A stretch of DNA of 49,427 nt from an uncultured Rubrobacteraceae bacterium. Lineage in GTDB: Bacteria > Actinomycetota > Rubrobacteria > Rubrobacterales > Rubrobacteraceae. How positions within the stretch are numbered: the first letter of the stretch is position 1; each line of letters starts with the position of its first letter. A program made the position numbers and the translations under genes. This document shows positions 3,700 to 48,678 of the stretch, one piece after another. The stretch lies in NCBI GenBank assembly GCA_902806055.1, contig CADCVD010000028.1, positions 1 to 49,427 of the forward strand, given 5' to 3'. A model generated the notes under the pieces. That model was not told where the DNA came from. It ran no database searches and saw only the letters and a program-made list of their open reading frames with translations.

Positions 3700-3832
3700 C
3701 TATTCACCGAGTTGCCGACAAGACGTTTTCTCGGATACTCAGTTGCCTATCCGGGGTTTTCTCGGATACTAGAGCTTCCGATGTAACGTCTTAGCGGCAA
3801 CCCGGCGAATAGAGGCAATGGGGCAGCCCCCC
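3700..3832. repeat. Inverted-repeat element, right copy flanking the cad cassette
   Basis: Bases 3700-3725 and 3787-3812 form 26-base inverted arms that match at 22 of 26 positions, separated by 61 bases. The right arm extends to 3831 and is the inverted partner of 141-185. Two TTCTCGGATACT motifs sit inside the loop. There is no ORF of substance. It looks like a MITE or palindromic intergenic element. The rest of the gap between 3624 and the sigma-factor gene at 4079 shows nothing else I recognise. Confidence 0.65.
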
Positions 3833-6290: not shown

Positions 6291-6625
6291 TCTTGCTCTC
6301 AGACCCGCGAGGATGGCCTAGGACGGCGCGGAGCCGGTCCTCTAGGGATGTAGTGATCGGAGGCTTCCGATAAGGCGATTTCTCGGAAACCCGCTGCTAC
6401 AAAGCCCGTGGTGTCAAGGACGGTTCCGCTGTGATGATCCCGCTTGGAGGCTGCACAAGCCCTCTGATCGGTCGATATAGGCACTCCCGCTACAGCGATG
6501 TGTGGCAAGCGGTAGTGACTTGCTACGCCAGGGCTTTTCGAGAACTTTGGCTCGGCCCCGGTAGCAGCACTCCGACTGCTCTATGATGAGCATAGGGCGA
6601 AAGCGGAATGTGGAGGTCAGGCATC

Positions 6626-38933: not shown

Positions 38934-39095
38934 CCCGTCAACTGTACGAACTGACAACGCCTTAAAGTTCGCTTCTCCGCTAAGCTAGGCCAGGAGCCGG
39001 AGATCGAACTGGGGTTAGTCTAGAGGCTACGCGCTCAACGGTTTCTCACCGAGCTGCCTAGCGAGTGAGTTTCAGAATATTGCGTGTGAAGCGTT
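38934..39095. repeat. Dispersed intergenic repeat, copy A
   Basis: Bases 38934-39002 match 44868-44937 (first 34 bases identical) and, less closely, 48608-48678. The weaker similarity to copy C continues to about 39095. The upstream part found in the other two copies is mostly missing here. It sits in the 38782-39262 spacer, which has no supported gene. Confidence 0.65.
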
Positions 39096-40027: not shown

Positions 40028-40668
40028 AACCTCCTTCTCGTGCAGAAAGTAAAGATCCCCTAGTCCCGGCCCCTTTAGAACTACGAGATGCGCATGTCTT
40101 GTCGATTCACTATCCGTGGAGATAGCATCCTCCTGCGCCCTGCCTATAGGGTTAGATCTGACCTGCTACTCAGCCCTGATGCTGGATAGCTTATATGGTA
40201 TTCGCTTAAACGCTTCCGTGGCAAGGAGCCGGGATTCACTAGATCGGGGCTCAGGATCTTCCTTATTCAAGAACTGCCGCTAAGAGGTCTTCTCAGAAAC
40301 CAACCAAACAACTCACTGATCTTCTTCATCTCGTATTAAGAACTACTCTAGCTAACCCGGTGTACAGGTTTTTCAGGTGAGTAGTTTCGAGAGCTGAAGG
40401 GGTGGATTACCCACTTGGTGGTTGAGCAAGAAAGCCACGGTGTGAGAGAGGACTTTTCGCAACAGCCTGCTGGTAAGGTGCCACAAATCACGCGCCCGCA
40501 CCCGCTCTGCGGAGAGGTCTTCTCTTCAGTTCAAGCCCCTAAGGAAACTTGCACACGGGGTTAATTAGTAAGAAAAAGTAGTAAATCTCACCCATTTGTA
40601 GGAGGCGCAAGTCTCTCTGCAGATACTATTCTCTTCTTGTAGTAAATACGTCGTTAGAAAGGACGAAG
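40028..40668. other. Long spacer with repeat fragment
   Basis: There is no supported gene on either strand. The first 55 bases encode the lost FHA start described for the GGDEF gene. Around 40267-40302 a fragment ACTGCCGCTAAGAGGTCTTC resembles the repeat at 141-185. The end should hold the promoter of the LPKTG protein gene; no confident -35/-10 pair was picked out. Confidence 0.5.
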
Positions 40669-41307
40669 ATGAAGAAGATCACCGCACTGATGGCAATGCT
40701 GGCGCTGGTTGTGGTTGCCGTGTCCCCGGCCTATGCTCAGGGCAGTGGCAGCAGCATAGAGGTCGGGGAAGGCGACGTCGAGATCTCCGACACCACAGCG
40801 GTTGAGGGCAGCATAGTTCAGAACTGTCCGGCGAGCGTCACGTTCGGCGACGGTAACGAGAACGTCCAGGTCGTCTCCGGCTCGCAGAACGCCGTGATCG
40901 ACATCGACGGCGACGAGAACGAGGCTGAGATCGAGCAGGAGCTCGTGCAGAGCGGCTTCAGCCCTGAGGTTTCGACCGAGTGCACCCAGGAAATCGCGCA
41001 GGCGGCGGCAGCCGGCGAGGCCCCGAAGGCCGAGGCTAAGGCTGGCGCTGCGGAGGCCAAGGCTGCTCCGGCTCCGAAGGCTGAGGCTAAGGCGGGTGGC
41101 GCGGAAGCCAAAGCTGCTCCGGCTCCGACCCCGAAGGCCGAGGCCAAGGCTGGCGGCGCGGAGGCTAAGGCTGCTCCGGCCCCGGCTCCGAAGGCTGAGG
41201 CCAAGGCTGAGCTGCCGAAGACCGGTGGCGGCGCTTCGCTGTTCGCGCTCGGTGCTGGCGCCCTGCTGATAGGTGCCGGCCTCGTGGCTCGCAGGATCAT
41301 CAAGTAA
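40669..41307 (+). CDS. LPKTG surface protein with Ala/Lys/Pro repeats
   Basis: This 212-residue protein has a signal peptide (cleavage likely after AYA, residue 23) and a small N-terminal domain with two Cys (NCPAS, TECTQ). A repeat region with units like PKAEAKAGGAEAKAAPAP occupies about residues 118-180, followed by LPKTG (182-186), a membrane helix and the basic tail RRIIK. This is the classical sortase substrate layout. The repeat tail resembles Ala/Lys/Pro-rich wall-spanning or DNA/heparin-binding tails. No sortase gene is in the window. A strong terminator follows. Confidence 0.88.
   Translation: MKKITALMAMLALVVVAVSPAYAQGSGSSIEVGEGDVEISDTTAVEGSIVQNCPASVTFGDGNENVQVVSGSQNAVIDIDGDENEAEIEQELVQSGFSPEVSTECTQEIAQAAAAGEAPKAEAKAGAAEAKAAPAPKAEAKAGGAEAKAAPAPTPKAEAKAGGAEAKAAPAPAPKAEAKAELPKTGGGASLFALGAGALLIGAGLVARRIIK
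41020..41208 (+). repeat. In-gene tandem repeats
   Basis: About three and a half units of 54-60 bases encode PKAEAKAG(G/A)AEAKAAPAP. Units differ mainly at third codon positions and by short Pro/Thr insertions, as expected for repeats that expand and contract by slippage. Confidence 0.8.
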
Positions 41308-44680: not shown

Positions 44681-44937
44681 TCTTATTCACCGGATTGCCG
44701 CTAAGATGCGGTCTCGGAAGTCTATATCCAAGATGCCGTCTAGTACCAGGACATAGCCGCCCTTCGAGGCCGATCGGTGACCATGAGCCCACGCCCTCGA
44801 CCACACAGTGTAGGAGCGCTGCATAATGTTGCGTGATCTGGGATGGGACTAGGCAGCACGCACTTCCCCCGTCAACTGTACGAACTGACAACGCCTTAAA
44901 GATTCTCTTCTCCGCTACGCTGGGTGAGGAGCCGGAG
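44681..44937. repeat. Dispersed intergenic repeat, copy B
   Basis: It aligns with copy C (48424-48678) over about 255 bases. Bases 44751-44937 and 48492-48678 are both exactly 187 bases, and both begin ACATAGCCGCCCTTCGAG. The left end (TTATTCACCGGATTGCCGCTAAG) also resembles the repeat at 141-185. No conserved protein frame was found. Confidence 0.75.
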
Positions 44938-44952
44938 CTCAAGGTGGCGTTG

Positions 44953-45084
44953 AGCTATAGCGGTTTGCACTGTTATTGACCCGCCTGCACGGTCAATGCA
45001 TGATTTTTACCGAGAGAACCTCTTGCGTGAGCGCTAGTATGCCCAGGTCGTTGAGGTTCAACTGCATTGCAAACCGCTATAGCT
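44953..45084. mobile_element. MITE-like element with perfect 17-bp terminal inverted repeats
   Basis: AGCTATAGCGGTTTGCA (44953-44969) is perfectly inverted at 45068-45084, giving a 132-base element with 98 bases inside. TATA at the arms fits insertion into TA with duplication, as in IS630/Tc1-mariner elements. There is no ORF inside, so any movement would need a transposase from elsewhere. It lies 15 bases after repeat copy B. The region to 45363 has no gene. Confidence 0.75.
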
Positions 45085-45363
45085 ACTACGTACTTGTATC
45101 CTGCCCACGGAACTGTGCCAAAGAAGCGCTCTGTGACCCTGGCATTTACCTATTCTCCGAAGTTCGCTCTTAACGCTCCTACAACACCTTTCTGCTTCCA
45201 GTCCGCGACCGGAGAAATGCGGGAGTCCGGGTAGTATCAGTACAGGACCGTCAGTCAGTCAGTCGGTTCGCCAGCGTAAGAACTCATGCTCGTCACTCTT
45301 GAGGAGTAGCCGACGGGCGTGTATGCCGACCCCTCCTTTCTCGCATAGCCATTACCCTTGTCC

Positions 45364-48423: not shown

Positions 48424-48678
48424 CTATTCATCAAGTTGTGCAGAAGAGGTGTTGTCCGAAGGCTACCTTCGAGATCGCACATACGATCAGAACATAGCCG
48501 CCCTTCGAGCCAATCGATGCCCACGAGACCACAACCTGCGACCATAAGATGTGGGAAGGCTGGATAGAGTTGCGGTATCTCGCATAGGCCGCAGGCAGCA
48601 CGTACTTCCCCATCACCTGTACGGACTTACAACGCACTGAAGGTCCGCTTTTCCGCCACGTTCGGCCAGGAGCCGGAG
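48424..48678. repeat. Dispersed intergenic repeat, copy C
   Basis: See copy B for the alignment. The core ends GGAGCCGGAG in all three copies. It fills much of the 48275-48894 spacer between the LuxR-type and LtrA genes, in which I find no gene. Weak similarity to copy A continues to about 48760 (GAAGCGTTCT). Confidence 0.7.

Follow-up and report, generated by a model that had tools for sequence, protein, structure and literature searches.

The Correia or NEMIS elements of Neisseria, whose ends begin with TATAGTGG, are one group of small repeats to which the element described here can be likened by description, their inverted repeats being longer than its own. In the available parts of the published accounts they appear as MITEs with inverted repeats of 24–26 bp, 107- and 155-bp forms and TA termini (PMC2229807, PMC3049150), and promoter, IHF and RNase III roles are attributed to them (PMC10969869). 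The repeat unit of pneumococcus (RUP) is given, in the available parts of its accounts, a length of ~107 bp, and IS630-Spn1 is proposed as its mover (PMC2229807, PMC3049150). According to the accessible portion of a further source, TA is duplicated on insertion in the IS630/ISY100 family, and the footprint of the ISY100 transposase covers 24 bp of the ends (PMC2170065).

The element analysed here lies in a 49 kb stretch of DNA from an uncultured Rubrobacteraceae bacterium (49,427 nucleotides, hereafter the window), and is almost certainly a MITE that inserts at TA and is mobilised in trans by the IS630 transposase of an autonomous insertion sequence. In common with RUP, as the available text describes it, it has terminal inverted repeats that resemble IS630 ends, those of RUP being like the repeats of an IS630 element in the same species, and it shares with RUP both insertion at TA and insertion into or near other mobile elements (PMC2229807, PMC3049150). 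It differs from RUP in its host, and the inverted repeats of RUP are shorter, at 9 bp in the portion of the source available (PMC2229807); RUP, likened here by description, is credited in the accessible text with ~108–110 copies per genome, against five close copies, the window copy counted, in the present draft genome (PMC2229807, PMC3049150). By analogy, the element may work as RUP does, its ends behaving like IS630 ends. The 24-bp ends of ISY100, as given in the available part of the source, are comparable with the 27 bp common to the MITE ends here, and TA is duplicated in both (PMC2170065); unlike the insertion sequences of the ISY100, IS630 and Tc1-mariner kinds, the present element has no transposase gene. 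Among the matches listed in literature searches on MITEs, IS630, Nezha and the end sequence, none describes the element, judged by title and the start of the abstract, and none of the publications containing its 11-mer concerns mobile DNA by title. The element represents a new family of a known kind, one that is well supported here but ordinary.

The original prediction was of a 132-bp MITE-like element with perfect 17-bp inverted ends. Such arms are present exactly, AGCTATAGCGGTTTGCA at 44953–44969 having its reverse complement at 45068–45084; they extend inward to 30 nt as an 83% inverted repeat, and with 14-nt seeds they form one of two inverted pairs of at least 30 nt in the whole window. 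The 14-mer TATAGCGGTTTGCA occurs in the window without mismatch at the two element ends only. The likeness to a MITE stands and the length does not, because other copies are alike only from the TA inward, which, with a paralogous empty site, sets the limits of the element at 122 bp (Table 1). The outermost AGC/GCT belongs to the target and lies outside the element; the empty target AGCTAGCT is itself palindromic. As ends of the element the 17 bp do not hold, each arm combining 12 bp of terminal inverted repeat with the duplicated TA and a 3-bp stretch of target whose palindromy is due to chance. The terminal inverted repeats of the window copy are perfect in this outer 12-bp part and imperfect to 27–30 bp. 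Folded as a single strand, the element gives z = -5.17, with none of 200 shuffles equally good. The proposal of TA-directed insertion is borne out by copies elsewhere in the genome that have other flanks and a TA on either side, by paralogues of the target with one TA, and by similar ends at IS630-type transposase loci of the genus.

Table 1. Coordinates of the element, its target site and the repeat that received it (window positions), and of small elements with similar ends in other genomes
Feature	Position	Strand	Basis or host
MITE proper, 122 bp, without transposase gene	44958..45079		limits from differently flanked copies and empty site
TA target duplication, left	44956..44957		paralogues without the insertion have one TA; 23/28 elements examined have TA on both sides
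TA target duplication, right	45080..45081		same basis: paralogues with one TA; 23/28 elements
Outer terminal inverted repeat TAGCGGTTTGCA, left	44958..44969	+	exact repeat; like the ends of IS630 loci in the genus
Outer terminal inverted repeat TAGCGGTTTGCA, right	45068..45079	-	exact repeat; resembles IS630 ends of the genus
Subterminal motif TTGACCC, left	44976..44982	+	spacing from the end is the same in many IS630 copies within the genus
Subterminal motif TTGAACC, right (GGTTCAA on + strand)	45055..45061	-	comparison with IS630 ends of the genus
Older interspersed repeat hit by the insertion, left part	44850..44955	+	short common reading frame ends at CTAG target
Same receiving repeat, right part	45082..45132	+	ungapped alignment with L100 across junction
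Small elements with TATAGCGGTTTGCA ends and long inner palindrome	L082 5092-5215; L084 3650-3773; L085 6355-6489; L086 5014-5149		Acidobacteria, Pyrinomonadaceae MAGs

The window copy is inserted in a CTAG of the receiving repeat, in which TAG is an in-frame stop codon. When the window flanks are joined at one TA and aligned with locus L100, there is no gap at the junction and 118/159 positions are identical; the right flank alone matched L100 only. Of 22 paralogues of this repeat, twelve can be aligned for 12 bp or more beyond the junction, uninterrupted paralogues showing a single TA, and the other ten fall short, three ending before the junction and seven within 9 bp after it. These empty sites are paralogous, each lying at a different locus and none representing the present locus before insertion; an orthologous one was not seen. 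The 761-bp region, used as query, matched 9 of the 10 genomes of the genus, a count that includes matches to the MITE and to a second short repeat. In most of the 22 other copies the frame of the receiving repeat ends like FSATLGEEPEVELALV-stop; L108 and L114 lack this ending, and L103 has it shifted. The encoded peptide is present in 8 of the 10 genus genomes and has no Pfam match. Because the MITE entered the TAG stop codon, the interrupted frame now runs seven codons (YSGLHCY) into the MITE and stops at a TGA there. The adjoining 'decayed repeat', which had been set against the element as a contrast to its perfect ends, is, as far as can be told, this receiving repeat and not a sister element.

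The receiving repeat has two more copies in the window, at 38934–39016 and 48488–48678, and many throughout the genus, and its short reading frame, which is conserved, resembles TVRTDNALKVRFSATLGEEPEVELALV-stop. Another short repeat, similar to GCCGCTAAGACGTTTTCTCGGAAACC, lies at 44682–44719 and, by eye, also at 170–199, 3710–3770, 6362–6391 and 40272–40301; it has many copies genus-wide and resembles, again by eye, the 25-bp inverted repeat that flanks the DDE_3 locus L043. An ORF at 40669–41307 contains three copies of a 73-nt repeat, with spacings of 51 and 57 bp, is rich in Lys-Ala-Glu, and carries an LPKTG-like C-terminal sorting signal.

The genome to which the window belongs is a draft of 192 contigs and 3.15 Mb, 91.8% complete with 5.1% contamination. 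A search of its contigs found, on C107, a copy 99% identical to the window element, so that the sequence is not the single copy without full-length relative that had been named as telling against a MITE. Matches to the ends of the element proved to be a second subfamily, with copies on C13, C14 and C148, the last being cut by a contig end. The window (C28) and C107 copies show one difference in 126 bases, and the C13 and C14 copies one in 128, the flanks being unrelated in both pairs, and within either subfamily no more than one base differs over the length compared. The length between the TAs is 122 bp in the former and 124 bp in the latter. The search for other copies with TA duplications, proposed at the outset, is thus answered by C107, C13 and C14. 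Recent activity, earlier read from the perfect ends, is better shown by the near-identical copy (125/126) at another locus. A sister genome, G008, holds two identical MITE copies, likewise with unrelated flanks. By DNA search the element's family occurs in 4 of 60 genomes, its own included, all four of the same genus; blastn against plasmid records gave no match to the element. Three half-matches to the arms in the own genome proved to be of different kinds: C129 is not an element by eye, C52 has one end of the TAGTCA type, and C82 is an element.

More distant relatives were brought out by a covariance model built from seven copies, all of them TTTGCA/TTTGCA elements. At E up to 0.01 it detected related units in at least 14 of 39 genomes of the bacterial family, at least seven of them in the genus, and at no fewer than 56 distinct places, 45 of them new, with up to 89 candidates scored per genome and the weaker matches standing as candidates; C82, C4 and C41 were added in this way in the own genome. 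The further units read came from 20 of the 45 new places, namely the 19 best-scoring and C41. They are 116–186 bp long, most with YAGCGG-type ends and, by eye, a TTGAMCC or TTGGACC-like motif further inward, the right ends of C82 and C4 having been placed by hand at CCGCTATA. C82 and G006:C3 (L178 31–168, L184 31–168) come from two species of the genus and form another MITE subfamily, with 133 of 138 positions in agreement. Its members have one TATGCA end and one TAGTCA end.

The exact-end pattern was also found in genomes of named species, in six stretches from Acidobacteria, Pyrinomonadaceae and Propionibacteriales MAGs. Four of these represent two elements, each present twice within a single MAG and with TATAGCGGTTTGCA at both ends (Table 1); they are not counted as copies of the family, because their inner palindromes are long and, by eye, they have no interior in common with it. 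The other two stretches have no TA at the expected place. A search for DDE_3 genes in three of these MAG genomes found none in one, and L204 and L205 in the others: at L204 TAGAGCAGTTTTCA stands at both sides of the gene with three mismatches each, and L205 has no convincing ends.

TA is present at both ends in 23 of the 28 elements examined, among them every full copy in the own genome, and is missing at one or both ends in the other five; left out of this count were C148 and G003:C126, which are cut by contig ends, and G003:C273:7060–7184, whose right end is decayed. The TA falls in CTAG at 12 of the 23 TA-flanked elements, as against 6.8% of the TAs in the window (binomial P 6e-9), and the base just outside the TA is C in 32 of 46 cases, as against 28% (447/1573) for window TAs. 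IS630 itself reportedly prefers TA in CTAG, to go by the title of Tenzen and Ohtsubo's work of 1991.

Transposase genes with PF13358 are found in 8 of the 10 genus genomes, and at many of these loci the upstream end is TACAGCGNNTTGCA...TTGAACC-like and the downstream end TACAGCGNNNTTCATAA...TTGAACC-like. A profile of 27 columns, made from MITE ends only, was used at a threshold of 10 bits to scan 31 DDE_3 loci, and reached that threshold in 12/29 upstream and 10/30 downstream zones. The zones were set after matches had been seen ~470 bp upstream of the DDE domain, and the permuted control used the same zones; 300 column permutations gave means of 0.05 upstream and 0.06 downstream, with maxima of 2 and 1. 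Both ends reached 10 bits at 5 of the 31 loci. The best upstream end (29.6 bits) belongs to L056, whose protein scores 198 bits with NCBIfam NF033545 (cut-off 100), which makes it an IS630 transposase, and also exceeds the cut-offs set by Pfam for DDE_3 and HTH_Tnp_IS630; no recognisable downstream end was found there by the profile scan or by a wider masked scan. The suggested search for the ends around an IS630-type transposase gene thus gives ends of the same kind at loci of the genus. The own genome has five DDE_3 matches: at C170 both ends score (24.3 and 12.1 bits) but the gene, as read, contains in-frame stops; C86 scores 7.0 and 15.5 bits, a partial match; and the other three have no such ends by the MITE-end profile. 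G008 carries both MITE copies and a transposase locus, L068, with the closest outer end of all upstream (a perfect 12-mer, 12/12), an interrupted transposase frame and AA as flanking dinucleotide at that end. Among the loci examined, none was an intact IS630 copy whose outer repeats equal those of the MITE at both ends. Multi-copy elements are often lost from draft assemblies.

The duplication of TA, the preference for CTAG and the IS630-type ends together argue that the MITE is mobilised in trans by an IS630 transposase. The ends, the other copies, the TA flanks, the paralogous empty sites, the CTAG bias and the IS630-like ends at loci of the genus are matters of observation; action in trans by one of the genus IS630 transposases, by cut and paste, is very probable. 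The transposase would be supplied by an autonomous IS630 insertion sequence to a MITE that has no such gene, and would recognise both ends through the outer YAGCGGTTTGCA and the subterminal TTGAMCC at a fixed distance. It would then excise the MITE and join it into a TA, with CTAG preferred, the target TA being duplicated on insertion; the window copy would have landed in this way in the CTAG of another interspersed repeat.

It is improbable that the element is instead a hairpin domesticated as an RNA stem-loop, a terminator or a regulatory element, which mobility has spread but which is kept for its function. The strong single-strand fold would suit such a role, as would a weak promoter-like match inside the element (TTGACC-17-CATGAT, 9/12), one of two such matches in an 801-bp region for which the shuffle mean was 0.5. 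However, the window has no Rfam match at gathering thresholds, the region scanned has no terminator-like site, and a conserved RNA structure is not supported, given the little covariation in the consensus fold (term -0.54; two-sided change in 4 of 33 pairs). An origin as a deletion relic, in which IS630 ends lost their middle in place and had no independent mobility, is very improbable: the same short units recur near-identical at unrelated sites, the full copies of the own genome are flanked by TA at both ends, paralogous empty sites exist, and multi-copy, TA-flanked insertions of the same length already contradict it. Such a relic would account for ends that match IS630 ends, and for the left inner half of the G008 copies, which resembles the 5' ends of the insertion sequences (z = 5.3, 0/100 shuffles). 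This resemblance of interiors is seen with G008a (z = 5.3), and the other four of five representatives showed none (20 comparisons in all). An inverted repeat arisen by chance is refuted by the copies, the fold statistics and the empty site, and its likelihood is vanishingly small.

With trans-mobilisation by an IS630 transposase as the preferred explanation, the nature of the ends deserves comment. Both termini of the element's family carry TTTGCA; IS630 transposases of the genus have ends of this type upstream and rarely downstream. All eight complete copies of the family are GC/GC; the 28 MITEs read comprise 15 GC/GC, 6 GC/TCA, 1 TCA/TCA and 6 other, a GC/GC share that is biased upward because the covariance model was built from TTTGCA/TTTGCA elements. 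A hand-picked list of insertion sequences has TTTGCA at both ends in 0/14, the list having left out L145 and L149, where TTTGCA lies at the 3' side of the transposase and, at L149, at both sides. Given these exceptions, a GC/GC parent is possible. The wider scan covered 71 transposase loci, the columns that tell the end types apart being masked, and L145 and L149 scored below its threshold; the 3' ends found (n=27) were 23 TCA, 0 GC and 4 other, and the 5' ends (n=18) 10 GC, 1 TCA and 7 other. Both ends were found at 8 of the 71 loci (4 other/TCA, 3 GC/TCA, 1 TCA/TCA), and several of the 'other' ends are probably due to chance. It is tempting, if rather doubtful, to see the MITE family as 'homo-ended', with two IS630 ends of the transposase-upstream type (TTTGCA), where the IS630 loci of the genus mostly have TCA downstream, with one or two exceptions; such a symmetric pair could let the small element outcompete its parent for transposase. 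If true, a homo-ended pair would argue for an origin by end duplication or conversion and not by simple internal deletion.

Both subfamilies include near-identical copies, divergent relatives are found in other genomes of the bacterial family, and the copy at C148 is an example of a draft assembly breaking at such a repeat. For this lineage the element offers a clean natural example of a MITE driven by IS630, complete with paralogous empty sites, in which end recognition and trans-mobilisation are open to testing.
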